Positions 4,984 through 51,699 of a stretch of DNA of 64,000 nt are shown one piece after another. Numbering within the stretch: position 1 is the first letter of the stretch; every line of letters starts with the position of its first letter. This DNA is from Vibrio gallaecicus (GTDB lineage Bacteria; Pseudomonadota; Gammaproteobacteria; Enterobacterales; Vibrionaceae). A program made the translations under genes and the position numbers. Where the stretch lies: assembly GCF_024347495.1 (NCBI RefSeq), contig NZ_AP025490.1:2046001-2110000 (forward strand). The letters are read 5' to 3'. The notes beneath the pieces were generated by a model. The model made no database searches. It was not told where the DNA came from and saw only the letters and a list, made by a program, of their open reading frames with translations.

Positions 4984-6312
4984 ATGCTCTATTTTGAATT
5001 TATCTTTTTGTTGTTAGTTCTGTATATCGGTTCTAGATTTGGTGGTATCGGACTTGGTGTCGTATCTGGCATAGGCTTAGTGATTGAAGTATTTATCTTC
5101 AAAATGCCACCAACATCTCCACCTGTTACAGTCATGCTCATCATTTTAGCCGTAGTGACTTGTGCCTCAATTCTTGAAGCGGCTGGCGGGCTCAAGTACA
5201 TGCTTCAGGTTGCTGAGCGTATTTTAAGAAAGAACCCCAAACGCGTTACTCTTATCGCACCTTTTGTCACCTATTCAATGACCTTCTTATTGGGTACAGG
5301 CCACGCGGTTTATTCTATTATGCCAATCATTGGTGATGTGGCTTTGAAAAACGGTATTCGCCCTGAACGACCAATGGCTGCAGCCTCAGTTGCTTCTCAA
5401 ATTGCTATTACTGCCTCCCCTTTATCGGCAGCGGTTGTCTACTATTTAGCTCAATTAGTCGATATTGATGCATCTATTACGCTAATGTCTATTTTAATGG
5501 TCACGGTTCCTTCCACTTTGTTCGGTACTTTGATGCTCTCTCTGTACAGCTTACGCAGAGGTAAAGAATTAGACGATGATGAGGAATACCAAGCTCGATT
5601 AAAAGATCCAATCTGGCGTGAAAAAATCCTCAATACGACATCAACTTCTCTAGATGAAGAGTTACCCGCTAAAGCTCGTAATGCTGTTTTGATATTCTTA
5701 GGAGCAATTGTGGCAATTGTCGTTATTGCAATGTTCCCAGAGATTCGAACAATAGTCGATGGTGAAAAACCAATTAAAATGTCTGTTGTGATTCAAATGA
5801 TGATGTTGGCATTTGGTGGCGTTATTTTACTTTCGACCAAAACAGACCCACGAGATGTGCCAAACGGAGTTGTGTTTAAATCCGGTATGGTTGCTGCTAT
5901 TGCTATTTTTGGTATCGCTTGGATGTCAGATACCTATTTCCAATACGCTATGCCTCAATTCAAAGCAGGTATTGTTGATATGGTGACACTGCACCCATGG
6001 ACATTTGCCCTTTCACTTTTCATTGTCTCTGTTGTAGTTAATTCACAAGCTGCGACTGCACGAATGATGCTTCCTGTAGGTTTAGCATTGGGGTTAGAAC
6101 CAGCATTAGTGATTGGCTTAATGCCCGCGGTGTATGGATACTTCTTTATTCCAAATTACCCATCTGATATTGCAACTGTGAACTTTGATAGTTCAGGTAC
6201 AACTAAAATCGGTAAGTGGTATTTCAACCATTCCTTCATGTCCGTCGGTTTAATTGGGGTAATATCGGCTTGTACCATAGGTTATGTTTTAGGACAAATC
6301 GTTATCGGATAA
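4984..6312 (+). CDS. Anaerobic C4-dicarboxylate transporter, Dcu family
   Basis: This 442-residue inner-membrane protein of the DcuA/DcuB family exchanges fumarate, malate or aspartate for succinate during anaerobic growth. About ten to twelve hydrophobic segments are visible. The stretches GTGHAVYSIMPIIGDVA and GIRPERPMAA look DcuB-like, while SQIAITASPLSAAVVY and VNSQAATARMMLP look DcuA-like, so I do not choose a symbol. The gene is inserted, on the opposite strand, inside an otherwise E. coli-like lipoprotein cluster. A strong terminator follows and an FNR-like box precedes it. Confidence 0.92.
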   Translation: MLYFEFIFLLLVLYIGSRFGGIGLGVVSGIGLVIEVFIFKMPPTSPPVTVMLIILAVVTCASILEAAGGLKYMLQVAERILRKNPKRVTLIAPFVTYSMTFLLGTGHAVYSIMPIIGDVALKNGIRPERPMAAASVASQIAITASPLSAAVVYYLAQLVDIDASITLMSILMVTVPSTLFGTLMLSLYSLRRGKELDDDEEYQARLKDPIWREKILNTTSTSLDEELPAKARNAVLIFLGAIVAIVVIAMFPEIRTIVDGEKPIKMSVVIQMMMLAFGGVILLSTKTDPRDVPNGVVFKSGMVAAIAIFGIAWMSDTYFQYAMPQFKAGIVDMVTLHPWTFALSLFIVSVVVNSQAATARMMLPVGLALGLEPALVIGLMPAVYGYFFIPNYPSDIATVNFDSSGTTKIGKWYFNHSFMSVGLIGVISACTIGYVLGQIVIG

Positions 6313-34697: not shown

Positions 34698-35639
34698 CTA
34701 TTTTTTAAAAGCAGGACGCTTATGATGTAACAGCTGTGACATTTCATCGGAAGTGTTGATAATTTCTTGTCTGAACCACTTATGAGCAGGATCGTTATTT
34801 TGTTTTTTCAGCCAAATCAGATAATGAGAGATAGGCAAATACTCAAAAGGAGGCTGGAATAACTGTAAATCTAAACGCTCTTGAAATTGAATTGCCATTG
34901 AAAGTGGCACAACCGTTATGTAGTCCGACTGACTGCACAGTAATAAGTTACTAAATAGCGAACTGCCGTGAAAAACAATCTTACGCTGTGATATATCCAG
35001 TGAAGTATAGTGACTTAAGCTTCTAACCTGACGCCGAGTTCGATCCAAAACAGCATGTTTTTCTGTCATGTATTGCGCTTCAGTTATCTCACCCTTAATT
35101 CTTGGGTGTCCAGTGCGACAAGCAATCACAAACTCACCATCATAAAGCTTCTCACTGACGGTACTTGGATGCTCAGGCAATACAATATCAATCATTGCAT
35201 CAAACTTTTGCGTTAAAAGATCTTCATGAACTTGATCATCAGTGTCAGGTTGATCATAAACTTCCAACGAGATCCCTTGGTTAGGCAACTGAGCAAAGCG
35301 GTTAAGCAATAACCACTGCAAATGTTCAGGGGCTGAGACGACAAATTTACGCTCAGATGTCACCTCATCAAATGATGCCATTCCCTGAAAGACGCCATTA
35401 AGCTCTTGTATTGGAGCTTTCACCTGCTCATACAAACTCTGCGAAAAAGCGGTTGGTACCACTCCTCGCCCGCTGCGTACAAACAATTCCTGACCAACAT
35501 CATTCTTTAATCGTCCCAAAGCGGTACTGATTGTCGACTGGTTGGTATTCAAGTGCTCGGCCGCCTTACTTAAACTCCCCTGCTCCATCACAGCAGAAAA
35601 TACAGCCAATAAGTTAAAGTTCGGAATGTCGTTACTCAT
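34698..35639 (-). CDS. LysR family regulator, candidate controller of the ATCG-N6-CGAT regulon
   Basis: A 313-residue LysR protein with an N-terminal helix-turn-helix (NLLAVFSAVMEQGSLSKAAEHLNTNQSTISTALGRLKND) and the usual effector domain. One ATCG-N6-CGAT box lies 16 bp before its start codon, and six more lie before the gene groups that follow on the other strand. In Pseudomonas aeruginosa the LysR protein SdsB1 controls the alkylsulfatase SdsA1; here a LysR gene again lies near an alkylsulfatase gene. Control of this set by this protein is my inference. Confidence 0.85.
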   Translation of the reverse strand: MSNDIPNFNLLAVFSAVMEQGSLSKAAEHLNTNQSTISTALGRLKNDVGQELFVRSGRGVVPTAFSQSLYEQVKAPIQELNGVFQGMASFDEVTSERKFVVSAPEHLQWLLLNRFAQLPNQGISLEVYDQPDTDDQVHEDLLTQKFDAMIDIVLPEHPSTVSEKLYDGEFVIACRTGHPRIKGEITEAQYMTEKHAVLDRTRRQVRSLSHYTSLDISQRKIVFHGSSLFSNLLLCSQSDYITVVPLSMAIQFQERLDLQLFQPPFEYLPISHYLIWLKKQNNDPAHKWFRQEIINTSDEMSQLLHHKRPAFKK

Positions 35640-35654
35640 TCATTTTTCCTATCA

Positions 35655-35668
35655 ATCGTTAAAACGAT
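35655..35668. promoter_or_regulatory. ATCG-N6-CGAT box 1, before the LysR gene
   Basis: ATCGTTAAAACGAT, ending 16 bp before the LysR start codon. A bound protein here would block or adjust expression of the LysR gene. Confidence 0.65.
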
Positions 35669-35923
35669 AATTAACTTATCTTTTACTTGTTTTTCGTAAT
35701 AGGTTCAATGTTTACCATTTGCTTGCTTTCTATATGTGAACTGAAACTTAACTCTTCAAACTCAATTGCTATGAGTAGTACCACTAGACCTAATAATAAG
35801 AGCGATAGATTTCAGTGTTTACTACTGACGTATTGCGGTCTAACTATATAATCACTTAATTTCATAGATTTTCTAAACAACACATTTATATAACCGACTT
35901 TTGACATCCACCTAGATTGAATC

Positions 35924-35937
35924 ATCGTGAAAGCGAT
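35924..35937. promoter_or_regulatory. ATCG-N6-CGAT box 2, before the FadL-like gene
   Basis: ATCGTGAAAGCGAT, 89 bp before the FadL-like ATG. The GTAGAT element that follows three other boxes is not seen here. Confidence 0.6.
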
Positions 35938-36026
35938 AATTAAATAATTATTTTGCTTATGTTTCTCACTTTAAAGTCCATCTAGTATCCGCCTGTTTAT
36001 GGTAGTCATCACAATAGGTTGGTTAA

Positions 36027-37274
36027 ATGAAAAAACACTTTTTAGCTTTGGCAATTACTACGGTAGTAAGCCAAGCATATGCTGCGGGTCCACTTCTTCC
36101 TGAATTAGGCTCTTTAAATGTCAGTACAGCAGGAGCAGGAAGCGCAGCATTAGCAGAAAGTGCTTTAACAGCATGGACAAACCCAGCAGGTATGTCGCAG
36201 TTAGAAGAAATGAATGTAACGATGAATGCTGCGCTACTTGATACCACATTTAATTATACAGACGCGGGCTCAACGGGTGCGTTCGCTAATGGTCAAAATG
36301 CAGATGGTGGGACGCTAACCCCTGCGGCCAGTTTCTATTTCGCAACCCCGATTAATGACAAGTTTCACGGCGGAATTGCGCTTGCATCCCAAGGAGGATC
36401 AGGGGTTGATTATGGGAAAAACTTTCACGGGCAAAGCTTATTAGAAAATGCCGAGTTTGTTACCGTACAAATTGCACCAGCCATATCTTATAAAGTAAAT
36501 GAAGAATTAGCGGTTGGTATGTCAGCTAACTTTGAATACTTTACGGCAAATGGCGAGCTTGATGTACTCCCCGGCTCACTGCCTACTATTGGAACGGGTG
36601 TGCTTGAAGCAGAAGCGAACGATTTTAACGTTGGCTATTCATTAAGTGCGTTTTATAAACCAAACAATAACCATAGATTTGGCTTAATTTACCGTTCTGA
36701 AATCGCACATTATGGTGAAGGAGACGTGAAGGCCAGCCATACCGGGTTTTTAGACACAGCTCCTTCTGCAGATGTTGGTTTGGACTTCATTATGCCAGCA
36801 CACCTACAAGCAAGTGGTGTACACACAGTTATTCCAAAATGGGATTTACTGTGGAGTGTCACTTGGTACGATTTATCAACCTGGACTGACTTAACGCTGG
36901 ATATCAATGATAGCCCTATCCCTGTTGTGACTCGAAACTTTGATGATGTTTGGAACTTCGCAATAGGCACTCACTACCAATTAAGCCGAAAAGTACGTTT
37001 AGAAACAGGAATAAGTTACGAAACATCTCCTCAAGACAATCCAAATAATATTTACATGGATGTGCCTTTAGGTGAAATTTGGCGATTTGGTCTAGGAGCA
37101 ACGTATAAAATCAACCGTAATTGGGAGATGCGCGGCTATTACGACTACATCGACTTAAGCGAACCTGAGATCGATTATACGCTCGATGTACTTCCTAATC
37201 TTGGTAACATGAAAGGCTCCTATGAAAGCCATGCTCATTATGTAGGTCTCCAAGTTAACTATCGCTTCAAGTAA
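36027..37274 (+). CDS. OmpP1/FadL family outer-membrane protein
   Basis: A 415-residue outer-membrane porin for hydrophobic compounds such as long-chain fatty acids. The signal peptide MKKHFLALAITTVVSQAYA is followed directly by the family's plug region (GPLLPELGSLNVSTAGAGSAALAESALTAWTNPAGMSQLE) and a barrel that ends in YVGLQVNYRFK with a C-terminal aromatic pattern. It is single, with a terminator behind it and a regulon box in front. The match of plug and barrel is strong; the exact cargo is not readable. Confidence 0.9.
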   Translation: MKKHFLALAITTVVSQAYAAGPLLPELGSLNVSTAGAGSAALAESALTAWTNPAGMSQLEEMNVTMNAALLDTTFNYTDAGSTGAFANGQNADGGTLTPAASFYFATPINDKFHGGIALASQGGSGVDYGKNFHGQSLLENAEFVTVQIAPAISYKVNEELAVGMSANFEYFTANGELDVLPGSLPTIGTGVLEAEANDFNVGYSLSAFYKPNNNHRFGLIYRSEIAHYGEGDVKASHTGFLDTAPSADVGLDFIMPAHLQASGVHTVIPKWDLLWSVTWYDLSTWTDLTLDINDSPIPVVTRNFDDVWNFAIGTHYQLSRKVRLETGISYETSPQDNPNNIYMDVPLGEIWRFGLGATYKINRNWEMRGYYDYIDLSEPEIDYTLDVLPNLGNMKGSYESHAHYVGLQVNYRFK

Positions 37275-37318
37275 CGATTAACTCAGGTATAAATCTACTC
37301 AGTACTTATCGGAATATT

Positions 37319-37346
37319 AAGCTTAGCGTTGGCTAAGCTTTTTCTA
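37319..37346 (+). terminator. Terminator after the FadL-like gene
   Basis: AAGCTTAGC, loop GTTG, GCTAAGCTT and TTTCTATTT. Confidence 0.85.
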
Positions 37347-37771
37347 TTTATGTCGCGTATATACACTCTAAAAGAGTCTCATCCTTCTCTTTAGAGCTTT
37401 ATCCGTAAATCATGACTACACCGTTTCGATTTGTATTGAATTTTAGCCTAATGAACGGGATAAACAAGGGCTTATTGTCTCACTTTTCGTGACACTGTTT
37501 CGCGCATCACTTTCTGTCATGTAGTAAAGCTCGTTTTATATTTATATCGTACGCACCGAACATTACACCTTTTCCCACCATACAGCTTTCCAGATAAATC
37601 CATTCATCTTCAAGCATCATAAGCTCTAGCCCTTACTATACTTAGCATGGTGAACTTTTCGTTCACTTTATCTGCACGTCATTCCTCTAAAAATCGACAC
37701 ATATCTTTTCTCAAAAGCCGGCCGGTTATTTGTTATTAATCTGTATATCCAAGGAATAAATAACTATAACT

Positions 37772-37812
37772 ATCGGATTCACGATAATTACAAAACGAAA
37801 TATCACGTAGAT
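37772..37812 (+). promoter_or_regulatory. ATCG-N6-CGAT box 3 with GTAGAT promoter element
   Basis: ATCGGATTCACGAT at 37772-37785 is followed after exactly 21 nt by GTAGAT (37807-37812), the same spacing as at 38996 and 41149. TAGATT is a plausible -10, which would centre the box near -41.5. Confidence 0.65.
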
Positions 37813-37919
37813 TCATATTATTCGCTTCCTCTATATTCCTCCCAACGAATAAACGCTTCATGGCTAATGGCTATGAAGATGAAATAAATTTCCTAAAAAT
37901 TATGGCTAAGGATATAGAT

Positions 37920-38825
37920 ATGCTTAAAAAGAATCTCCTTTCTGTTGCAATCACCGCAGCAGCACTACTTTCGACAACAGCAAGTGCACAAGAAAAATTA
38001 TCAGTGCAAGAAGCTGCAAAAAAATCAGCTAACCCTGTATCTGATGTTTGGATGTTGATCACCCAAAATGATTACACAGTCCTAGAAAAAGACGATGGTC
38101 ACCATGAAATGCAAAACCGTTTCAGCTTTCAACCAGTAATGCCAGTCCCTATTATGGATGGCGAATGGAACCTAGTTAACCGTCTGGTAGCGAACCATTA
38201 TAGCGCTCCAGGAGATCGTGAAGACGGTGACTTCTTTGAAGGTCGTACAAATGGCATGGGCGACACCGTTTTTCTATCAATGGCCGCACCTAACCGTGAC
38301 GACGGTTGGATTTGGGGTGTTGGTCCAACAATGATTATGCCCACCGGTACTGACGGTTTAACACAAGATAAATGGCAAGTAGGTCCTGCTGCAATGGTGG
38401 CTCGTCTTGGTAAAGAAACAGGTAACCCAACAAGCATTGAAAGCTGGAACGTAGGTTTCTTAGCCCAGCAATGGTGGGATGTTGGCGGAAGTGATAGCGT
38501 CACCGACTCAACAAGCCAAGCTGATATCCAGTATTTTTTAAACTATCGTTTAAGCAACACAGCCCTAATAGGTATGACACCGAATATACAAGTTGATTGG
38601 ACAAAAGATGGCTCAGACCAATTCACGGTACCAGTAGGCTTGGGCTATATCGATATGTTTAAAATTGGACCTATGCCCGTACGCTGGGGGGTTGAACTTC
38701 AGTATTATGTAATGAAGCCTGATGCCAATGTTGGTGCTACTAACCCATCAGAATATGTTCCGTATGCTCCAGATTGGAACCTGAAATTCTTCATTGCTCC
38801 GGTTACACTGAATCCATTCAAATAA
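37920..38825 (+). CDS. Outer-membrane protein of the 'MetA-pathway/neuromedin U' annotation group
   Basis: A 301-residue exported protein from the ATG at 37920, which has an AAGGA ribosome-binding site and gives the signal peptide MLKKNLLSVAITAAALLSTTASA. The mature part is a small beta-barrel with the pattern QNRFSFQPVMPVPIMDGEWNLVNRLV, GMGDTVFLSMAAP, GVGPTMIMPTGTD and YFLNYRLSNTALIGMTPNIQVDW. Such proteins are often annotated as transporters or 'neuromedin U', and no function is proven. Its promoter shares the box and spacing with the alkylsulfatase and HlyD genes, suggesting a common job with hydrophobic or amphipathic compounds. Confidence 0.75.
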   Translation: MLKKNLLSVAITAAALLSTTASAQEKLSVQEAAKKSANPVSDVWMLITQNDYTVLEKDDGHHEMQNRFSFQPVMPVPIMDGEWNLVNRLVANHYSAPGDREDGDFFEGRTNGMGDTVFLSMAAPNRDDGWIWGVGPTMIMPTGTDGLTQDKWQVGPAAMVARLGKETGNPTSIESWNVGFLAQQWWDVGGSDSVTDSTSQADIQYFLNYRLSNTALIGMTPNIQVDWTKDGSDQFTVPVGLGYIDMFKIGPMPVRWGVELQYYVMKPDANVGATNPSEYVPYAPDWNLKFFIAPVTLNPFK

Positions 38826-38843
38826 ACTGTCCAAATCCCCCCT

Positions 38844-38886
38844 GACTGGTCTAATTTCTCAAATATTTTAGACCGGTCTTCCTAAT
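38844..38886 (+). terminator. Terminator after the second outer-membrane gene
   Basis: GACTGGTCTAA and TTAGACCGGTC arms (one G-T pair) around a 12-nt loop, followed by a T-rich stretch. Confidence 0.7.
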
Positions 38887-38963
38887 TCTTTTTTACCCAC
38901 TTCTATGATCCAGACCAAGTTAATGAACAAAGTTTTCAAGATGTATATGAGCCTTTTCAAATA

Positions 38964-39036
38964 ATCGGAGTACCGATTTAGTATTAAATAAACACATCGT
39001 AAATTCGATATATCAAAATCGTATTACACGGTAGAT
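38964..39036 (+). promoter_or_regulatory. ATCG-N6-CGAT boxes 4 and 5 with GTAGAT promoter element
   Basis: ATCGGAGTACCGAT at 38964-38977 (a nearly full palindrome) and ATCGTAAATTCGAT at 38996-39009, with starts 32 bp apart. After the second box, 21 nt lead to GTAGAT at 39031-39036. The roughly 45 bp after the box closely resemble those at the alkylsulfatase promoter. Confidence 0.7.
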
Positions 39037-39410
39037 ACCACTCAGTTCTCTTCCTATTATCCTGCTAGTAAATCAATGTTCACTCGAACTAACAGAATGA
39101 CGAATGTTTTTATCGTGCTCAGTGTAAAGCATCATGGAAGAGCCCCTTATTTAAGGTGAGTTACACCGGATAATGACCAATACTCGTATTTTTTTGGAAC
39201 GAGACAATGAAGTTGATTCACTAAGGGGCCAATTTGTGCCTAATACAGAGAATCCGTTGTCTGGATATAGCGCCATTATTTTTAGAGTTCATCGACACCT
39301 TTTGTCTATGCGTAGTATGACTAAAACGCGGTAGGCATTAACTTCTCAGGTGATGCTAAAAAGTATTCTAGGCTACAAGTTCTCTCTTCTTATTTTACGT
39401 AGGTAGAGAT

Positions 39411-39977
39411 ATGAAATTTCTTAAAATTGTTTTCCAAAAGATTTGGGCTGTCGCCTTAGTCTTTATTAAGTTCATCCTTTTTATGGTGCTGATGTTTGCT
39501 GGCGCTTGGGTGCTGGCACCAATGGGTAAAATACATTCAAAAGACATCGACCTTAGCCAATTCAATAACCACCCAAATGAAATGATGATGACGTTTTTTC
39601 AAACGGAGTATTTCTCGGGTTATCTGTTTTCTGTAACCATGGCTGTGGTACTTGCTGTTATATACGGCATGTGGCAAGTCCATGAACTCGGTGTGCATAA
39701 AGCGAAAGAGCATAAAAGTGCACATGTTCAAATTGTATTCGCCCTTTCTCTTTGCGGTCTATTCATCAGCAAAACCTTTTGGGTTATCGCTTTGGTTATT
39801 GCCCTAGCAAATTGGAAACATGTTGGCCAATCCATCAGTGACGTTATTCGCCGTGGTGTTCAACCTAAAGACCCCGCTGCCAGCGATAAAGCCCCAAATA
39901 ATCAAGATTCAAACGACCAAAATCTTATCAACCAAGCGAATCCTAAACAGACAGCAACCGGAAACGAGGCAGCATAA
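39411..39977 (+). CDS. Inner-membrane protein, DUF3302/YibI-like
   Basis: A 188-residue protein with hydrophobic segments at about residues 10-35, 66-85 and 103-130 and a polar Gln/Asn-rich tail. The segment IYGMWQVHELGVHKAKEH, followed by SAHVQIVFALSLCGLFISKTFW, resembles the YibI/DUF3302 family, which in E. coli is encoded next to the HlyD-like YibH. Its stop overlaps the start of the HlyD-like gene by one base (TAATG), so the two are made together. Family assignment is by pattern and context, so moderate. Confidence 0.65.
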   Translation: MKFLKIVFQKIWAVALVFIKFILFMVLMFAGAWVLAPMGKIHSKDIDLSQFNNHPNEMMMTFFQTEYFSGYLFSVTMAVVLAVIYGMWQVHELGVHKAKEHKSAHVQIVFALSLCGLFISKTFWVIALVIALANWKHVGQSISDVIRRGVQPKDPAASDKAPNNQDSNDQNLINQANPKQTATGNEAA

Positions 39978-40966
39978 TGAAAGAAATGATGATCCCATAT
40001 ATCCTGATTGTATGGTCCCTGTTTGCAACTGGCGCATTAAAAAAGAGCTTTAAAAACTACACATGGGCAGCCATTGGAGGCGCGGTTATTTTAGGTCTTT
40101 TAGCTATCGTATCTCGCCTTTGGGCACCTGTTGATATGACTAACTCGACAACGGTAAAAGCACCACACGCTGTAATGTCTCCGGTTTTCGGTCAACAGAT
40201 CGACCAAGTGTTCGTTGATCACAACCAAATCGTTAAGAAAGGCGATGTGATCTATACATTAGTCGACATTAATTCGGCGGCAGATAAAGCAAAAATTGAA
40301 TCTTCGATTGTACAAAAAGAAGAAGAGATTAAGCAGATGACTCGCGATTTGGATCGCGCTGAAACATCGCCTCAAATTTTCAATACTCGTGACGTAGAAA
40401 AATTAAATTCAGATCTTCGTGTTATGAATGCTGCATTAGCGTCACTCAGAGCCGATTTACAGAAGGTTAACTGGGCACAAGAAAAGAAAACAATTACCGC
40501 CGAGTTTGATGGTCAAGTGTCAATAGTGAACATTGCTGAAGGTTCGGTTATGGGTAACATGCACCTATACAACACCAGTAAGAAATTCCTTGAAATGCGT
40601 ATTTCAGACCAAACTTACGGTTACGTAAAAGTGGGCGATTTTGCCGAGTTCTTTGTTGACGCTTACCCAGGTCACGTGTTCCGCGCCAAAGTTCACAGCT
40701 TTACAGCTGGTACTGGTGAATCGAGTATTTCACCTCTTCAAGGGCCACAAAGTGTCGGTCAACACGTTGTTCGAAACGGTAATGGCTTAGGGCGAACTAT
40801 CGTACTAGAAATATTTGAACCTGAAGGCTACACCATTCCAATAGGTGCAGCAGGTGCAGCTTGGATTTCCGCAGAGAAACCGCATCCATTTTGGGGCTTC
40901 ATTGATGTGATTGGCGCAGCAACAGTCCGCCTTCAATCCTACAAATCTTATCTGGGTGCTTGGTAA
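39977..40966 (+). CDS. HlyD/YibH-like membrane-fusion protein
   Basis: A 329-residue periplasmic adaptor anchored by one or two N-terminal membrane segments. The lipoyl/biotinyl-like half-motifs are visible: HAVMSPVFGQQIDQVFVDHNQIVKKGDVIYTL, then a coiled-coil hairpin, then ITAEFDGQVSIVNIAEGSVMG. No outer-membrane factor or ATPase is encoded next to it, so it may work with its DUF3302-like partner alone, as YibH is thought to do with YibI. It probably exports a small amphipathic compound; that is inference from context. Confidence 0.82.
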   Translation: MKEMMIPYILIVWSLFATGALKKSFKNYTWAAIGGAVILGLLAIVSRLWAPVDMTNSTTVKAPHAVMSPVFGQQIDQVFVDHNQIVKKGDVIYTLVDINSAADKAKIESSIVQKEEEIKQMTRDLDRAETSPQIFNTRDVEKLNSDLRVMNAALASLRADLQKVNWAQEKKTITAEFDGQVSIVNIAEGSVMGNMHLYNTSKKFLEMRISDQTYGYVKVGDFAEFFVDAYPGHVFRAKVHSFTAGTGESSISPLQGPQSVGQHVVRNGNGLGRTIVLEIFEPEGYTIPIGAAGAAWISAEKPHPFWGFIDVIGAATVRLQSYKSYLGAW

Positions 40967-40979
40967 TATGATCGTTCGC

Positions 40980-41015
40980 ATAGCTTCATAGCTTCATAGC
41001 TTCATAGCTTCATAG
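40980..41015. repeat. 8-bp tandem repeat, unit ATAGCTTC, four and a half copies
   Basis: Four copies plus ATAG of the same unit as at 13261. It begins shortly after the HlyD stop codon and lies before the terminator. Confidence 0.95.
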
Positions 41016-41042
41016 AAAGACTCTATGCTCCATTACTGAATC

Positions 41043-41073
41043 AAAAACACCTCATTCTTGAGGTGTTTTTTTG
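41043..41073 (+). terminator. Terminator after the HlyD-like gene
   Basis: AAAAACACCTCA, loop TTCT, TGAGGTGTTTTTTT. Confidence 0.9.
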
Positions 41074-41117
41074 TATTCATCAATGCCAAAAATCATTGTT
41101 TGACCTTGATCAATAAA

Positions 41118-41189
41118 ATCGAATAAGCGATTGAATGAAAATCAAATCATCGTAATAACGATATGTCGAAATCGATTTACCTCGTAGAT
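41118..41189 (+). promoter_or_regulatory. ATCG-N6-CGAT boxes 6 and 7 with GTAGAT promoter element
   Basis: ATCGAATAAGCGAT at 41118-41131 and ATCGTAATAACGAT at 41149-41162, with starts 31 bp apart. 21 nt after the second box comes GTAGAT (41184-41189). A start of transcription near 41197 would put the boxes near -72.5 and -41.5. Confidence 0.72.
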
Positions 41190-41258
41190 ACCATTCACTT
41201 ACCTCTTTATGATTACCCCATCAAATCCTATTCCTGTTTTAAAAATAAAGGTCACATT

Positions 41259-43235
41259 ATGACTAATACGTTTAAGAAAATGGCTTTACCCGTTGCGATT
41301 GCAAGTGTTCTTTTCACTTCTGGCTTTGCCTCTGCAACTCCAGTTATTGAAGCAACATCGAAAGTAGGTCAAGAACTTCAAACTGCAAATGCAGCTCAAT
41401 ACCAAAACATCGATCTTGATTCACGTTACAAGAGTGAAGTTCTATTTGAACATAAATCTAACTTATTCTGGGGTAAAGGCGAACGTATTCAGGTTGTTTC
41501 TAAAACAGGTGATTCTCTAGCTTACACCGCTGAGTCTGACCATGTTCACCCTATTTTAACCAAGCACGGTCGTAAAATGGATCAAGCTATCATCAAAGTA
41601 GATGACAATGTTTACCTTGGTTACGGTTTCGGTCTTGATACACCAGTAATGATTGAAGGTGACGATGGCATTATCATCGTTGATCCAGGTGAATCAGTAG
41701 AAATGGCTCAATCGGTTAAAGCGCAATTCCGTCAAATCACAGATAAGCCAGTTAAAGCTATCATCTATTCTCACAACCATATTGACCACATCTCTGGTGT
41801 TCGTGCATGGGTGACAGACGAAGAAGTGGCATCAGGCGACGTTAAAATCATCGCTGAAGAAGGCCTAACAGCAGCCGTGGCTAACTGGTCTTCAAACTTG
41901 GGAACATTATTCGGTCACCGTACTTCTTATACTGGCGCTAAGCACGTAGAAGAAGGAGAGCACGGTACTGTAAACGATGGTCTAGGTCCTCGTTTCATGC
42001 AGGGTGCTATCTCGTTCATCGAACCAAACGTGCTTGTACCAAGCCAAGGGCACTTAGAGATTGAAATTTCTGGCGTTAAAATGCACATTGAAAACGTGCC
42101 TTCTGAAACTAAAGATGAGCTAGTTGTTTATCTTCCAGAGCAAAAAATTCTACATGCTGCAGAAGTACTTCAAGGTGAAAACTTCCCGAACCTTCACACC
42201 ATTCGTGGCACGAAATTCCGTGACCCTTCAATGTGGTTCAAAGGTATCGACGTAATGCGTAAGTTTGACACTGAGATTATGATTAACTCTCACGGTCGCC
42301 CTGTTGAAGGTAAAGAAGCGGTATCTGACGTATTAACGGCTTACCGTGATGCGATTCAATACACGCATGACCAAACAATTCGTTACATGAACAAAGGCAT
42401 GACGCCAGATGAGTTAGTTGAAGTGGTAAAACTTCCTAATCACCTTGCAGAGCACCCTTGGTTAGGTGAACACTACGGTACTGTTGCACACGCAGTGCGC
42501 CAGATTTACGTAGGTTACAACGGTTTCTTCGAAGCGGATCCATGGCAACTAGAGCCAATGGCATACGAGCAACGCGCTAAAGCATTCGTAGAGATCATGG
42601 GCGGCCGTGAGAACATCATCGAAACCGCTAAAGCAGCAATCAAAGCAGAAAACTACACATTTGCGGCAGAAATTCTTTCTTACCCTATTACGGTTAACAA
42701 GCAAGATATGGAAGCTCGCGAGATGAAAGCACAAGCTTACAAAGCATGGGCTGCAGATCAAGTGAACATCAACTGGCGTAACTGGGCACTTAACGCTGCT
42801 GCTGAACTAGAGAACAAACGTGATTTCTCTAACATGATCAGCTTTGCTTCAGTTGACGTTCTTACTGCATTACCAAGCAAGCAGATCTTCGACATGATGA
42901 CTTCAACGCTTATCGCAGAAAACTCGCTAGACGTAAACATGATGCTAACGTACAACTTCTCTGATACTAACGAAGCATTTACTATCGAAATCCGTAACGG
43001 TATTGCACAGCTACACGAAGAAGCAGTAAAAGGTGCTGATGTACAAATCGACACCACGCGTACAGTATTGAACCAAATCTTGATTGCGGGTCCAAACGCT
43101 CAACAAGTGATTGGTAAAAACTTACAGTCTGGCGCATTCAAATTCTCGAATGGCGACATCAAAGGCTTCGGTCAATTCATGAGCTACTTCGATAAGCCAA
43201 TGACTCCTGAAGAAATCATGCTTATCGTTCGCTAA
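41259..43235 (+). CDS. Exported alkylsulfatase with metallo-beta-lactamase fold (SdsA1/YjcS-like)
   Basis: A 658-residue enzyme from the ATG at 41259, which has a ribosome-binding site and a signal peptide (MTNTFKKMALPVAIASVLFT, cleaved near ASA). An earlier in-frame ATG lies inside the promoter boxes and is rejected. The zinc-binding motif HNHIDH is at H172, H174, D176 and H177, followed by a helical dimerisation domain and a C-terminal SCP2-like domain with hydrophobic pocket. The family cleaves alkyl sulfates such as SDS to alcohol and sulfate. It carries the best-defined regulon promoter. Confidence 0.9.
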   Translation: MTNTFKKMALPVAIASVLFTSGFASATPVIEATSKVGQELQTANAAQYQNIDLDSRYKSEVLFEHKSNLFWGKGERIQVVSKTGDSLAYTAESDHVHPILTKHGRKMDQAIIKVDDNVYLGYGFGLDTPVMIEGDDGIIIVDPGESVEMAQSVKAQFRQITDKPVKAIIYSHNHIDHISGVRAWVTDEEVASGDVKIIAEEGLTAAVANWSSNLGTLFGHRTSYTGAKHVEEGEHGTVNDGLGPRFMQGAISFIEPNVLVPSQGHLEIEISGVKMHIENVPSETKDELVVYLPEQKILHAAEVLQGENFPNLHTIRGTKFRDPSMWFKGIDVMRKFDTEIMINSHGRPVEGKEAVSDVLTAYRDAIQYTHDQTIRYMNKGMTPDELVEVVKLPNHLAEHPWLGEHYGTVAHAVRQIYVGYNGFFEADPWQLEPMAYEQRAKAFVEIMGGRENIIETAKAAIKAENYTFAAEILSYPITVNKQDMEAREMKAQAYKAWAADQVNINWRNWALNAAAELENKRDFSNMISFASVDVLTALPSKQIFDMMTSTLIAENSLDVNMMLTYNFSDTNEAFTIEIRNGIAQLHEEAVKGADVQIDTTRTVLNQILIAGPNAQQVIGKNLQSGAFKFSNGDIKGFGQFMSYFDKPMTPEEIMLIVR

Positions 43236-43495: not shown

Positions 43496-43978
43496 ATGTT
43501 AAAACGAATTGCTCTACTTCTTTCATTAAGTTCTTCGCTTGTTTTTGCGTGTGGTTTACACCAAGAAACTGGCTTTAGCTTAGTTACAGAACCAGGTTCA
43601 CTTGAAGTCTTTGGCAATATCATTAATGCCCGCCAAGACGATGAATTTAATAATCTCAATAAACCAGACCACTTCCGATTATTTGCTATAAAAGCAGCGC
43701 TTGCCAAAGAGCACTCACTAAGCACTGACTTCAACTTATTCGAAGCCATTAAAGGTCATTACAGTGAAATTAATGTAGCAAATGAGGTGAGCGTTTCGGG
43801 GCGAGAAACCCTCCCAACAAAAGAAGATCTATTACTAATTACTGAACTCGATGTATTTGATGCGATCGCAACTGGCACCATTTCTTGGGATCAAGCCAGC
43901 CTTCAGGGATTAGTAGTCATCAATGGACCTGATGATAAACGTGAACAGTTAAACGCTTGGTTCAGCGACATCTTTTGA
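43496..43978 (+). CDS. Exported hypothetical protein
   Basis: A 160-residue protein from the ATG at 43496, supported by an AGAGG ribosome-binding site. The N-terminus MLKRIALLLSLSSSLVFACG is a signal peptide; VFAC could be a weak lipobox, so it may be a lipoprotein. The rest is acidic and soluble with no known motif (EVFGNIINARQDDEF, AIKAALAKEHSLSTDFNLFEAI). It converges with the ferric-reductase-like gene. Function unknown. Confidence 0.6.
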   Translation: MLKRIALLLSLSSSLVFACGLHQETGFSLVTEPGSLEVFGNIINARQDDEFNNLNKPDHFRLFAIKAALAKEHSLSTDFNLFEAIKGHYSEINVANEVSVSGRETLPTKEDLLLITELDVFDAIATGTISWDQASLQGLVVINGPDDKREQLNAWFSDIF

Positions 43979-46578: not shown

Positions 46579-49500
46579 CTAATCTGAGACTAATCTCTGA
46601 GAATGCAGCCCTTTTCTACGTGTCATCAAGTGGAACACGACAGGCACAAAGTAGAATGAAATCAGCGTGGTTAATACTGTACCGCCGACGATGGCAACTG
46701 CAAATGGCGGCCAAAAACCACCGCCTGCAATAATCAAAGGCATAAAACCGCCAACCGTTGTGATGGTTGTGGAGCTAATATGACGAGTACACGACATCAC
46801 CGCTTCTACCACAGCATCAACATTGCCAGATGAAGCCCTCTCATCCAGTTTAAGCTCAGTCAAAATTACAATGGCTGCATTGATAGCTAAGCCAGCAATA
46901 CCCAACATAGCGATGATTACAGTGAAGCCAAATGGGTAACCAAATATCCACACGGACAATAACCCAAGACCGCCCGCAAGCGCTGCCACCATGAATATGA
47001 TGCTACTCATTCTGAATGAGTTAAACGACATCACCACTACTAGTACCATCAAGACCACAACAACGGCCACATTAGAAATTAGACTATTTACAGAGTTATC
47101 TCGTTCCGCCGATTCGCCACCAAACCCAATAGTGTAGCCTGACGGGATCTCATAACTTTCTAAACGCTTTTGGAACTCATTGAGTACAGTCTGTGGTAGT
47201 ACACCAGCTTTGATGTAACCCTCAATAGTATTCACACGCTGCCCATTACGTCTAGTGATAGAACCGCGGCTAGTCGTAAGCTCTAACTCTGCTAACGTTG
47301 AAACATTGATACCCGTTGAATACACCTCTGAGCTTATCGGTAAACGGATATTACTTAGGTGCGATAAATTCTCGCGGGCATCATCCGCTACACGTACTCG
47401 AATGGGTACTGACTCACTGCCTTCAATCACTGAGCCGCTTTCACGACCCGTTAACGTGGTTTGTAGCATGCCTGCAAATTGATTAAGAGAAATACCATTT
47501 AGCTTGGCTGTATCCTCATCGACCTTAAGCCATACTTTAGGCGTACCCGGCTGTAAGGTTTCTCGTGTATGAGTAACATTGGGAATATTGGCAAGAATTA
47601 AGCGTACATCTTCACCAATCGCCTTCAAGGTATCTAAGTTTTCGCCATAAACACGTAATTCTACAGGCGCAGTAAATGGCGGCCCTTGATTAAGCTTTCT
47701 TACCAAAATCTGCGCTTCTGGAACCTCTTTATCCAACACCTCTTGTAACATTGGAATCAAAGCATTGGCTTGTGCGAAGTTCTCCGTTTTCACCATCGCT
47801 TGTGAAAAATAAGGCGCGTTGTTTTGTCTTGCTTGCAGGTTGTAATAGAAAGACGGGAAGTTAGCTCCTACCAGCCAATCAATACGCTCCACTTCTTGGT
47901 AACGGTGAATAATGTCATCGACTTTTTCTGAAGTGGCTTTGGTCGCATAGATACTTGCTTGAGGCGGCATGTAAACCTGAATCTCAAACATGTCTCTGTC
48001 CGAAGGTGGGAAGAACTGCTCTGTTAATTGAGACATGCTCCAGTAACCGGTAAAAGGTACTAACAGCACAAGGGCAATCGTGATTATCGGGTGAGTGACA
48101 CCAAAGCGAACTGACGACGAAAACCAGCGAGTCAATGCAGGAATTCTCAGCCCTGTAATAAACCAGTGGTGCTGACCTTTTTTATCAACATCACTGAGCT
48201 TTTTAGGAAGAAGCTTAGTCGCTAGACCTGCGATCAGCGTATGCGAAATTAGGTAAGAACCTAACAGAGAGAAAGAAACGGTAATCGCAATGCCGCCCAC
48301 AAATTCACCTGAAGCTCCTGGCATTAAGATGATTGGTGCAAAAGCAAGAACGGTCGTAAGTGTTGAACCTAGTAGCGGCACCCATAAATGCTTAAGTGCA
48401 TTCATCGTTGCTTCGGCTCGCTGCTGACCTTTCAAACGGTAAGCTTGAATGGTATCCACCATTACCACCGCATTGTCCACCATTATCCCGAGTGCAACAA
48501 TTAAACCAGTCACCGACATTTGGTTGATTGGTACTCCGGTCATCTTCATGATGGAAAGTGTGAGTAATGAGGTTAACGGAAGAGAAATGGCGACTAAAAT
48601 TGCAGCTCGAACACCTAGAGTCACGAACAGTACAATTAAGATCAGCACAAAACCAATCATTAAACTTTTGCCTAAGTCATCTAAGCGAGTCTCGGTGTAA
48701 CCCTGCTGATTAAACAACACAGTTACTTGAACATTGCTTGGCAGTTCTTGCTCAAACTTATCGATAACGGTATTGGCTCTAGCTGTCCAATTATCCACTC
48801 GCAAGTCAGGATGCATTCGCGCAGCAACAATCACTCCGGGCTCACCATCAACAATCGCGATTTGATTTTGTGGCGTTTTTTCCCCTCGGCGTACAGAAGC
48901 AATATCTTCCATTCGGATGATGTGCCCATTACTGTCTGTCGCAATTGGCACTTGTTTAATTCGTTCAATCGAGTCGAGTTCTGATTCAATTTCTAACCCA
49001 AAACGAGAATATGCACTGACTAATTCCCCGGCAGAGTTTTTCGCATCAGCGCCTTCCAGTGATTCCGCAATATTAGCGCTTGAACGCCCTAATGCCGCAG
49101 CATCAGCAGTTCGCAAACTGATCTGAATTTCTTCTTGTGGCATCCCGTATTCATCAACGAATTCGGTGCCTGATAAGGTTCTTAATCGCTTAGCCAATTC
49201 TTTTGCATAACGACCAAGAGTTAGCCTATCTGGCTCTCCAGAACCTGACCAAGTAAGCGCAGTAATTGTGGTGAAGGCGTAAGTATGGTCACTGTCGAGA
49301 TCCGGAGAGTGTGTGCCTGATGGCAAGAGCGCCTCAACATCAGATAATTTGTCACGAGCCTGCGACCAAACAGGTTCTGGCTCGGTAATGTCATCATTCA
49401 ATTCCAGTGTCACAATCGACACTCCCGGTCTTGACGTTGAGGTGACTAATTTAACTTCACTCAGTTCACGCAATTTGTTTTCGATGACTTCAGTCACCAG

Positions 49501-49680
49501 CGTTTCAACCCGCTCGGCACTAGCACCTGGAAAACTGGTGGTAATGTTTGCATAACGGTTTTCTATGACTGGGTCTTCAGCTCGCGGTAAGGTCATGAAA
49601 GCTGAAATACCGCTTACAAGAAGTAAAGCAGTCATTAATATCAGTAGCCGAGTATTGGAAATAGTCTCTATGATTTTCAT
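46579..49680 (-). CDS. RND family efflux transporter, inner-membrane pump
   Basis: A 1033-residue proton-driven pump of the AcrB/MexB superfamily with the usual twelve membrane helices and two large periplasmic loops. Motifs: LPRAEDPVIENRYANITTSFPGASAERVE at the N-terminus, GIMVDNAVVMVDTI in helix 4, and a repeat half ending in FYFVPVVFHL. It resembles the AcrB/CzcA-related group often annotated as multidrug or dye efflux. Its adaptor gene lies 8 bp upstream in the same operon; no outer-membrane factor is encoded here, so it probably borrows TolC. Confidence 0.93.
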   Translation of the reverse strand: MKIIETISNTRLLILMTALLLVSGISAFMTLPRAEDPVIENRYANITTSFPGASAERVETLVTEVIENKLRELSEVKLVTSTSRPGVSIVTLELNDDITEPEPVWSQARDKLSDVEALLPSGTHSPDLDSDHTYAFTTITALTWSGSGEPDRLTLGRYAKELAKRLRTLSGTEFVDEYGMPQEEIQISLRTADAAALGRSSANIAESLEGADAKNSAGELVSAYSRFGLEIESELDSIERIKQVPIATDSNGHIIRMEDIASVRRGEKTPQNQIAIVDGEPGVIVAARMHPDLRVDNWTARANTVIDKFEQELPSNVQVTVLFNQQGYTETRLDDLGKSLMIGFVLILIVLFVTLGVRAAILVAISLPLTSLLTLSIMKMTGVPINQMSVTGLIVALGIMVDNAVVMVDTIQAYRLKGQQRAEATMNALKHLWVPLLGSTLTTVLAFAPIILMPGASGEFVGGIAITVSFSLLGSYLISHTLIAGLATKLLPKKLSDVDKKGQHHWFITGLRIPALTRWFSSSVRFGVTHPIITIALVLLVPFTGYWSMSQLTEQFFPPSDRDMFEIQVYMPPQASIYATKATSEKVDDIIHRYQEVERIDWLVGANFPSFYYNLQARQNNAPYFSQAMVKTENFAQANALIPMLQEVLDKEVPEAQILVRKLNQGPPFTAPVELRVYGENLDTLKAIGEDVRLILANIPNVTHTRETLQPGTPKVWLKVDEDTAKLNGISLNQFAGMLQTTLTGRESGSVIEGSESVPIRVRVADDARENLSHLSNIRLPISSEVYSTGINVSTLAELELTTSRGSITRRNGQRVNTIEGYIKAGVLPQTVLNEFQKRLESYEIPSGYTIGFGGESAERDNSVNSLISNVAVVVVLMVLVVVMSFNSFRMSSIIFMVAALAGGLGLLSVWIFGYPFGFTVIIAMLGIAGLAINAAIVILTELKLDERASSGNVDAVVEAVMSCTRHISSTTITTVGGFMPLIIAGGGFWPPFAVAIVGGTVLTTLISFYFVPVVFHLMTRRKGLHSQRLVSD

Positions 49681-49688
49681 GGTATTCC

Positions 49689-50792
49689 CTACTTAGCCAC
49701 TTCAGCAGGCTTTACTGTTTGCCCTGGAACTAAACGATGCAAACCACTGGCAATCACCTGCTCGCCATCAGCTAAGGCACCAATCACATAAGCTTGTTGA
49801 TTATTTGCAAATAGAACCTGAACGCTTCTGCGTTCAACTTTGTTACCTTCACCAATAACGAAAATATTCCACACGCCACGTAAACCATCGATTAATCCGG
49901 TTAATGGGATCCAATAACCTTGTTCATCTATCGTTTCATCAAATTGAAGGTAAGTAAGCTGCCCTTCTAAAACTGGTGATTTTTCTGGGAAGAGATAGCG
50001 TAATGCTACGCTGCGAGACTGGGTATCAACCATGGCACCAGGGTTAAGTAAACTCACAGAATAATTTGAGTTAGCCACTCTTATCACCGGAGCTTCAAGT
50101 GAAGTGACCTTTAGCATTTGATGAGCAGGAATGCCAATGAAGGCTTCTTTCCCTTCCGTTGCAAGTAGAGTCAATGTCGGGTTTCCCACATTTACCACAT
50201 CACCTAATGAAACAAAACGCGTTGCTATCGTGCCCGAATACGGAGCAAGAACAGTCGATTTAATCAGTTTTAAATCATTTGCTTGTACTGAAGCATCAAT
50301 CCGCAGAAGGTTAGCTTGCAGTACACGCTGCTCACTAGTCAGTGTGTCGATTTCAGCTTCAGCACTGAAACCTTTCGCTTTGAGCGAACGCTGACGCTTT
50401 AGGTTAGCCGCCACTAAACTTAACTGAGCTTTTACTTCTTCAGATTGGGCTTTTAACTGGCTGGACTCTGTTTTAAGAAGCTGAGTATCTAAACGAATAA
50501 GTGGCTGCCCTTCTGTGACGGTATCACCCACATCAACAAATATCTCTTGTACTTTCCCTGCTAATTCAAAGCCCAAATTGGCTTGCTGCCCAGCTTTGAC
50601 AACTCCAACATATTCACGCTGAACTGCATAAGAAGGTGATAGCTCCAAAGCGATCGTTTCAACAGTTAATACCGTTCCTGTAGTTGAAACAGCTGAGTCA
50701 ACTGGAGACTCAGTTTGCGTTGCTTCTCCACATCCAATAAGAAAAGTCGATAGCGCTAACGCCATCGCACTTCTCTTCATCAATTTATACAT
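49689..50792 (-). CDS. RND efflux adaptor (membrane-fusion) lipoprotein
   Basis: A 367-residue periplasmic adaptor. The lipobox LIGC puts the lipid anchor on Cys 21. Barrel-sandwich halves AGQQANLGFELAGKVQEIFVDVGDTVTEGQPL and LKLIKSTVLAPYSGTIATRFVSLGDVVNVG flank a short coiled coil. It is the first gene of the pump operon and is divergent from the TetR gene, with a 27-bp palindrome in its promoter region. Confidence 0.92.
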   Translation of the reverse strand: MYKLMKRSAMALALSTFLIGCGEATQTESPVDSAVSTTGTVLTVETIALELSPSYAVQREYVGVVKAGQQANLGFELAGKVQEIFVDVGDTVTEGQPLIRLDTQLLKTESSQLKAQSEEVKAQLSLVAANLKRQRSLKAKGFSAEAEIDTLTSEQRVLQANLLRIDASVQANDLKLIKSTVLAPYSGTIATRFVSLGDVVNVGNPTLTLLATEGKEAFIGIPAHQMLKVTSLEAPVIRVANSNYSVSLLNPGAMVDTQSRSVALRYLFPEKSPVLEGQLTYLQFDETIDEQGYWIPLTGLIDGLRGVWNIFVIGEGNKVERRSVQVLFANNQQAYVIGALADGEQVIASGLHRLVPGQTVKPAEVAK

Positions 50793-50840
50793 ATTACTGT
50801 TCCTATGCAGTTTTCAATCGTATCCTTTTTAGACTAACCA

Positions 50841-50867
50841 AATCAAACTAGACTGTCTAGTTTGATT
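50841..50867. promoter_or_regulatory. 27-bp perfect palindrome, likely TetR operator
   Basis: The half-site AATCAAACTAGAC is followed by a central T and its exact reverse complement. It lies 49 bp before the adaptor gene and 221 bp before the divergent TetR gene. Repression by that TetR protein is inferred from size, symmetry and position. Confidence 0.8.
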
Positions 50868-51087
50868 ATGTTAAATATAAGTTTCATCGTTAATGATTGA
50901 TAAAAACATCACAAAAAGCATAATGCTATCCATCGGCTAACTTACATTTGGTTCAATGCGATTTGTCGGATCAACTTGAGCCTTGTCAGCACCTGGAAAG
51001 AAAAACAGTTACAATTAGAGTAGCAATGCAACGTAAGTAGCGATGCCCCGAAAAGTAACGAGAAACAAAACGTAACGAGAAGCAAAC

Positions 51088-51699
51088 GTGACAAAAATCA
51101 TCAAGAGTGAACAAAAAAAATCGCAGATCTTAGCCGCAGCCAGTGAGCTATTTTCTCAATACGGCTACAAGATCAATATGGATCAAATAGCGAAAGCTGC
51201 AAATGTTTCTAAGCAAACGGTCTATTCTCATTTCAAAAACAAAGATGAGTTATTTGAAACCTGCATGCAGACCAGATGTATTGAGAGAGAGTTAAGCCCA
51301 AGCGCATTTGATATGGATGCTCCTGTCGCCGAAGAACTGGTCAAATTTGGAATGAAGTTTCAGAACTTATTGCTTGATGAACAAGCAAGGCAAACTTTTC
51401 AAAATGCAGTCAGCCAAGCCAACACTCATCCTGAAATAGCCGCGGTTTACTTGCAGTCTGGTCCCCAGAAAACGACTAACTTATTGGCTGAGTATCTAAA
51501 AGACAAAGTCAATTCAGGTGACTTTAACTTGTCAGTTTCAAGTTCACCAAGAATTGCAGCCATGCAGTTGTTGCTCATGTTCCACGGAAAATCCGCTTAC
51601 TGGGGATTCTTCGGGCAAGACAGCCAAGAAAGTGATGAAGATAGACTAAATTACATCCAAGAATGCGTGGCTCTGTTTATTAACGGTAACTGTTCTTAA
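51088..51699 (+). CDS. TetR family regulator of the RND pump
   Basis: A 203-residue TetR-type repressor starting at GTG. The DNA-binding domain is SQILAAASELFSQYGYKINMDQIAKAANVSKQTVYSHFKNKDELF; the C-terminal part is a helical ligand-binding domain of the TetR_C_14-like type (YLQSGPQKTTNLLAEYL). It is divergent from the RND operon with a large palindrome between, the classic layout of a locally acting pump repressor. Confidence 0.9.
   Translation: MTKIIKSEQKKSQILAAASELFSQYGYKINMDQIAKAANVSKQTVYSHFKNKDELFETCMQTRCIERELSPSAFDMDAPVAEELVKFGMKFQNLLLDEQARQTFQNAVSQANTHPEIAAVYLQSGPQKTTNLLAEYLKDKVNSGDFNLSVSSSPRIAAMQLLLMFHGKSAYWGFFGQDSQESDEDRLNYIQECVALFINGNCS

Follow-up and report, generated by a model that had tools for sequence, protein, structure and literature searches.

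Which protein reads the palindromic box that recurs in front of the genes for a LysR-type transcriptional regulator (LTTR), a FadL-type porin, an HlyD-type adaptor and an exported alkylsulfatase (AlkS) in Vibrio gallaecicus? The locus lies in a 64,000-nucleotide stretch of this genome (contig NZ_AP025490.1, positions 2,046,001 to 2,110,000), here called the window, and was picked out in a sequence-only reading that listed seven copies of ATCG-N6-CGAT and named the adjacent LysR protein as a possible regulator. We find that the boxes are very probably operators of that protein, judging from four computational observations: the sequence of the box, its conservation among relatives, its spacing from predicted promoters and its association with the LysR gene.

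Occurrence of the box

The pattern ATCG-N6-CGAT occurs eight times in the window. The seven copies listed earlier are all present, between 35655 and 41162, and all are intergenic (Table 1); a further copy at 6304 shares bases with the 3' end of an open reading frame (ORF; 4984-6312). Dinucleotide shuffles of the window (n = 100) gave a mean of 0.63 boxes per 64 kb, with at least eight in none of the 100. From the off-locus density in the genome, 0.095 boxes would be expected in a 5.5-kb stretch where seven are seen (P of at least seven approximately 1.2e-11, or approximately 1e-8 with all genome windows of 5.5 kb considered), and the clustering is thus far above chance, as had been proposed. 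The seven boxes are not equivalent: box 1 is the LysR self-site, boxes 2, 3, 5 and 7 are main promoter sites, and boxes 4 and 6 lie 32 and 31 bp upstream of boxes 5 and 7, respectively.

Across the whole genome (5,126,655 bases, two contigs) the bare pattern is at background density, with 95 sites vs 104 for a reversed control. A genome-wide regulon defined on the bare pattern is therefore ruled out, and the box regulon is local. Random density elsewhere had been put forward as grounds for rejecting the regulon; the density is indeed random, which limits the regulon to this locus and does not refute it.

Conservation across orthologous loci

Orthologues of the LysR gene were collected from 148 genomes of the genus (28 relatives plus the genome itself, E <1e-100), from 295 genomes of the order (11 outside the genus plus one further genus member) and from 15 further contigs (V. 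splendidus, V. crassostreae, V. lentus, V. fortis, V. methylphosphonaticus, Moritella, Aliivibrio and other Vibrio). The window and 56 loci were mapped, and two were dropped: L112, which meets a contig end, and L089, an outgroup with a LysR of 33% identity whose sole pattern match lies inside its LysR gene. In all 55 loci kept, a full box precedes the LysR match at a distance of no more than 150 bp, over LysR identities from 92% to approximately 53%. About 48 of these 55 are distinct, given 50 different upstream contexts among the full set of 57.

Within 470 bp upstream, a box is present at AlkS in 42/43 loci, at an exported-looking gene (the 'barrel' of the earlier reading) in 13/13, at a DUF3302-like gene in 34/39 and at FadL in 14/19; the corresponding counts are 3/39 for HlyD and 1/40 for an SCP2-like gene. 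Some boxes are shared: the FadL box is the LysR box in most relatives, and four 'barrel' genes (L059, L063, L067 and L073) have the LysR box alone, 297-422 bp away. In the AlkS exception (L072, genome G087) the AlkS match begins only at residue 73 and lies approximately 2.5 kb from the box, so that this gene looks interrupted. The box-less DUF3302-like genes (L083, L108-L111) and FadL genes (L088, L108-L111) lie downstream of AlkS in compact runs where a single box stands in the LysR-AlkS gap. In other genera, compact loci keep the box, often as a single copy.

Operator sequence and promoter layout

The operator consensus is a perfect 14-bp palindrome, ATCGTAATTACGAT. In a scan made without reference to LysR, the exact palindrome was found in 37/148 genus genomes, and a 15-bp odd form in just one of the 148; the even form is taken as the real operator on this basis.

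Spacing downstream of the box is nearly fixed. Counted from the first base of the box, a TANNAT -10 hexamer stands at +59 in 32/38 AlkS, 29/29 DUF3302-like and 13/13 FadL promoters. With the predicted -10 at this position, the centre of the box falls at approximately -64.5, a site at offset +22 at approximately -42.5 and an upstream site at approximately -96. The best off-box match to the 14-mer is at offset +22 in both AlkS (z = 3.0) and DUF3302-like (z = 3.7) promoters; the next best is at -31 in the 38 AlkS promoters (z = 2.9) and at -32 in the 29 DUF3302-like promoters (z = 2.3), where -32 becomes the best off-box match if only the eight fixed bases are scored (z = 4.1). Mean pairwise identity among AlkS promoters is 0.73 at positions 20-31, 0.73 at 36-41 and 0.74 at 59-65, all outside the selection for the box, vs 0.39 in the flank and 0.36 in the spacer. 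The identity of the box itself (0.86) is partly due to selection, because an exact box was the criterion for including a promoter.

In the excerpts of PMC11602165 (on AccR), LysR-type sites at divergent promoters are often near -65, -35 and -10. Measured from the predicted starts, a box near -64.5 and, in the AlkS and DUF3302-like promoters, a degenerate site near -42.5 make up the usual LysR-type layout and not that of CRP/FNR. Operators of CRP/FNR are of the TGTGA-N6-TCACA or TTGAT-N4-ATCAA type, and neither type is present in the consensus.

Association of the box with the LysR gene

Among the genus genomes, the exact palindrome is found in 23/29 with the LysR gene vs 14/119 without it (Fisher 2.8e-12), and a reversed control palindrome in 4/29 and 10/119, respectively. 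In 22 of the 23 the palindrome is at the locus; in the other (G139) it is elsewhere, in coding sequence. Taken alone this association is weak, because LysR and its targets often travel together, and the case for LysR as the reader is carried by homologous targets that lack a box and by the promoter layout.

Homologous targets in LysR-less genus genomes comprise 39 HlyD homologues in 29 genomes and one AlkS homologue (G001, 56% identity), and an upstream box was found at none of the 40. When three stretches of LysR-bearing genomes are added (two of the paralogues there and one partial match), a full box is absent from 42 of the 43 stretches, and the remaining one (L192) has a box only inside the facing LysR-like gene. 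The telling cases are the DUF3302-like/HlyD pairs of G030, G056, G100 and G110 (65-67% identity) and the AlkS of G001. In G030, G100, G110 and G001 a different LysR (25-28% identity) faces the target, which has no upstream box. The helix-turn-helix (HTH) segment of all four replacement LTTRs differs from TNQST.ST, the segment that is invariant across 15 aligned orthologues of the window LysR. These loci (L191, L192, L194 and L207), in which a DUF3302-like/HlyD pair or AlkS faces an unrelated LysR, are natural regulator replacements.

The window protein has both LysR domains above cut-off (PF00126, HTH_1, 4.9e-18; PF03466, LysR_substrate, 2.5e-15). Its best NCBIfam matches point to the LeuO/BsrA/CitR subgroup of LTTRs and are all under the curated cut-offs: LeuO (9.1e-49, 166 bits, cut-off 262), BsrA (155, cut-off 480) and CitR (133, cut-off 400).

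Search for further regulon members

A profile built from the promoters of 30 relatives, with window sequences excluded, ranks promoters of the locus first in the genome (AlkS 53.3 bits, DUF3302-like 52.9 bits). The next scores are 19.5 (the AlkS box on the reverse strand), 18.8 ('barrel') and 16.8 bits (a partial off-locus site, C1:2603795), and no second strong promoter outside the locus is among the 150 candidates scored. Weaker regulon members are inseparable from background by profile score alone.

Among off-locus sites of this genome, 15 of the 19 examined (of 88), L001-L015, lie in open stretches of at least 194 amino acids and have no TANNAT at +59 on either side, and five near-consensus off-locus sites (L172-L176, one of which is L008) are inside ORFs. 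Of four extra exact palindromes in LysR-bearing relatives (L168-L171), two are in long ORFs and two have no TANNAT at +59; the latter (G087 and G116) are one site read in opposite orientations and lie outside ORFs of more than 150 amino acids.

Proposed mechanism and alternative readers

We infer LysR binding, the direction of control, tetramer use and the start sites as follows. A LysR dimer would bind the palindrome at approximately -64.5 as its recognition site, and the second dimer of a tetramer would sit on the degenerate site at approximately -42.5, two helical turns downstream and beside a weak -35 (TAGATA). Once bound by its ligand, LysR would engage RNA polymerase and activate transcription of the DUF3302-like/HlyD pair, of FadL, of the exported 'barrel' gene and of AlkS together with the SCP2-like gene, and the box near the LysR start would mediate autorepression.

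Several points weigh against LysR as the reader. The 55 loci were picked via LysR, so its presence there is by construction, and LysR and its targets are mostly gained or lost together. Most HlyD homologues in LysR-less genomes are 41-53% identical and possibly paralogues with other roles, so that only about five of the 40 box-less cases are informative; in these, box loss could reflect divergence. The promoter rows, besides being picked for an exact box, are mutually related sequences. Neither the +22 nor the upstream second site is clear in FadL promoters, and the 'barrel' promoter hexamer is one base off (TAnnnT at +60 in 7/7 promoters counted, TANNAT at +59 in 0/7). The profile search scored 150 of 2437 first-look candidates, and it places the LysR site (15.5 bits) and FadL (15.3 bits) under the off-locus score of 16.8. 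Finally, ATCGTAATTACGAT is dyad symmetric with T-N10-A spacing rather than the textbook LTTR operator, a T-N11-A dyad. Operators of the T-N10-A and T-N9-A types are reported for other LTTRs in the excerpts of PMC8407307, which cites a study by systematic evolution of ligands by exponential enrichment (SELEX).

It is unlikely that another regulator, of the CRP/FNR or TetR type, reads the boxes with LysR as merely one of its targets. The sequence-only reading had raised such a reader on account of the even symmetry, and a perfect even 14-bp palindrome, a box at the LysR gene itself and a TetR gene close by (51088-51699) would all suit it. Even symmetry is, however, compatible with LysR proteins in the excerpts of PMC8407307, leaving the suggestion unsupported; the box centre and the second site 22 bp downstream fit LTTRs, none of the compact loci scanned contains a match to the window TetR, and the exact palindrome in LysR-less genomes is near the level of the reversed control. 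The box is also gone from the same targets when they face an unrelated LysR. The choice of loci via LysR is a weak point of this case against another regulator. Hardly credible is a third account, in which the boxes are duplicated promoter segments copied along the locus with no regulatory role. Several promoters do have common stretches around the box, but the three AlkS segments named above hold their identity while flank and spacer drift, and the compact loci of other genera keep the box, often singly. Control by the adjacent LysR protein is supported by box conservation at orthologues, the fixed -10 spacing and the box-less targets without LysR.

Genes of the locus

Table 1. Positions of boxes, predicted promoter elements and genes in the window.
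Feature	Position	Strand	Remarks
LysR-type regulator, proposed reader of the boxes	34698..35639	-	PF00126, PF03466
Box 1, LysR self-site	35655..35668	.	15 bp before LysR ATG; autorepression proposed
Box 2, main site of FadL promoter	35924..35937	+	TANNAT at +59
Predicted -10 (TAGTAT) of FadL	35983..35988	+	+59 from box 2 start
FadL/TodX-type outer-membrane porin	36027..37274	+	PF03349, 7.8e-64
Box 3, main site before 'barrel' gene	37772..37785	+	-10-like hexamer at +60
Exported-looking protein, 'barrel' of earlier reading	37920..38825	+	No family match
Box 4, upstream accessory site	38964..38977	+	32 bp before box 5
Box 5, main site of DUF3302-like/HlyD promoter	38996..39009	+	TANNAT at +59
Degenerate second site, proposed activation site (approximately -42)	39018..39031	+	+22 from box 5 start
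Predicted -10 (TATTAT) of DUF3302-like/HlyD operon	39055..39060	+	+59 from box 5 start
Small protein before HlyD, DUF3302-like	39411..39977	+	PF11742 below cut-off
HlyD-type periplasmic adaptor	39977..40966	+	PF16576, 5.8e-8, above cut-off
Box 6, upstream accessory site	41118..41131	+	31 bp before box 7
Box 7, main site of alkylsulfatase promoter	41149..41162	+	TANNAT at +59
Predicted -10 (TATGAT) of alkylsulfatase	41208..41213	+	+59 from box 7 start
Exported SdsA-type (type III) alkylsulfatase, AlkS	41259..43235	+	PF00753, PF14863, PF14864
Secreted, probably SCP2-like protein after AlkS	43499..43978	+	SCP2-like predicted fold

The metallo-beta-lactamase, dimerisation and C-terminal SCP2-like domains of AlkS (PF00753, PF14863 and PF14864) are all above cut-off, and the protein matches SdsAP (2.5e-72) and SdsA1 (2.6e-68). 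The zinc ligands of type III alkylsulfatases are HxHxDH, two Glu and one His in the excerpts of PMC5426288; aligned to SdsA1/SdsAP, the metal ligands of AlkS are HNHIDH, the E of dELVV, the E of aaEVLQ and the H of nSHGRP. A longer ORF starts at an upstream ATG (41163); on inspection by eye, the N-terminus that resembles a signal peptide belongs to the start at 41259. Of the 14 genomes used as controls, only E. coli and Caulobacter gave a match to the sulfatase domain. The earlier gene set missed the gene after the sulfatase, which follows AlkS in 40/43 loci; its product is a secreted protein, probably SCP2-like by its predicted fold, and a profile comparison with the sulfatase C-terminus gave no match.

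One label of the sequence-only reading, the 'barrel', could not be confirmed: Pfam gives nothing for its product even at E 10, and the structure model is unusable (predicted local distance difference test score 28.9). A second label, DUF3302, falls short, with PF11742 at E = 2.5 and 8.8 bits vs a cut-off of 32.

Box and start of the DUF3302-like/HlyD unit are approximately 340-450 nucleotides apart (39010-39410 in the window), a gap that is kept in Vibrio relatives with the split layout. This leader is partly conserved and contains invariant GAGAAT and TTCTC segments that are able to pair. As an RNA element it has no Rfam match and no conserved ORF by eye, and its consensus fold is weak (-9.9 kcal/mol, with changes on both sides in 2/24 pairs). 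An RND pump, an adaptor and the TetR gene (46579-51699) are near the locus in many Vibrio relatives, and no full box is found there in the window.

Function of the gene set

We lean slightly towards a gene set that handles sulfated long-chain amphiphiles, the substrate being suggested by gene content. AlkS would cleave outside the inner membrane, the SCP2-like protein and FadL would capture the product, and the HlyD-type adaptor pair would serve export or tolerance. The earlier idea that the genes deal with alkyl sulfates or surfactant-like compounds is plausible. There is a substantial, though less than even, chance that the same regulator and boxes serve mainly to export an amphipathic compound or to make it tolerable, with the sulfatase as an accessory. 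In keeping with this, LysR and the DUF3302-like/HlyD pair occur without AlkS in the stretch examined in 12/55 loci, and, at an E threshold of 1e-150, AlkS is missing from 6/29 LysR-bearing genus genomes; against it, AlkS occurs without the pair in the stretch examined in 16/55 loci. Neither half is universal, since each is absent from some loci.

We tentatively propose, and regard as doubtful, a dedicated and so far undescribed uptake-and-cleavage route for natural marine sulfated lipids, in which a LysR sensor with a T-N10-A palindrome would control a secreted sulfatase, a secreted SCP2-like lipid carrier that stands alone, FadL and the adaptor pair. An ancestral compact operon with a single operator, as in relatives from other families of the order, would have been split in the Vibrio splendidus group into units with their own operators at equal spacing. 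This direction of change is suggested by the distribution of layouts among relatives.

Comparison with known systems

The locus holds a real, conserved, local regulon, very probably under LysR control. Its type of regulation is standard; the operator, the gene set and the differences in layout between relatives appear to be new. Neither the operator consensus nor the box pattern was found in the literature searched. The analysis provides a precise, testable prediction of operator and start sites for a LysR protein that seems not to have been studied; relatives with similar targets, a different LysR and no box serve as natural controls. It also connects the SdsA-type alkylsulfatases of marine bacteria with a porin and with a secreted protein that probably binds lipids. 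Operon layout varies among relatives while operator spacing is kept, which makes the locus useful for asking how regulons are rebuilt.

In Pseudomonas, SdsB/SdsB1 has the role of regulator beside sdsA. PA0739 is the gene named SdsB1 in the excerpts of PMC8407307. The present locus is like the SdsB/SdsB1-SdsA/SdsA1 systems in having a LysR-type gene beside an SdsA-fold type III alkylsulfatase. Unlike SdsB/SdsA, it has a defined 14-bp operator before up to five units, including a porin, an adaptor pair and an SCP2-like protein. Predicted site positions, a weaker second site two turns downstream and a self-site are shared with the LTTR promoters described in the excerpts of PMC11602165 (AccR), from which the present promoters differ in their T-N10-A even palindrome, their several units per locus and their accessory sites at approximately -96.

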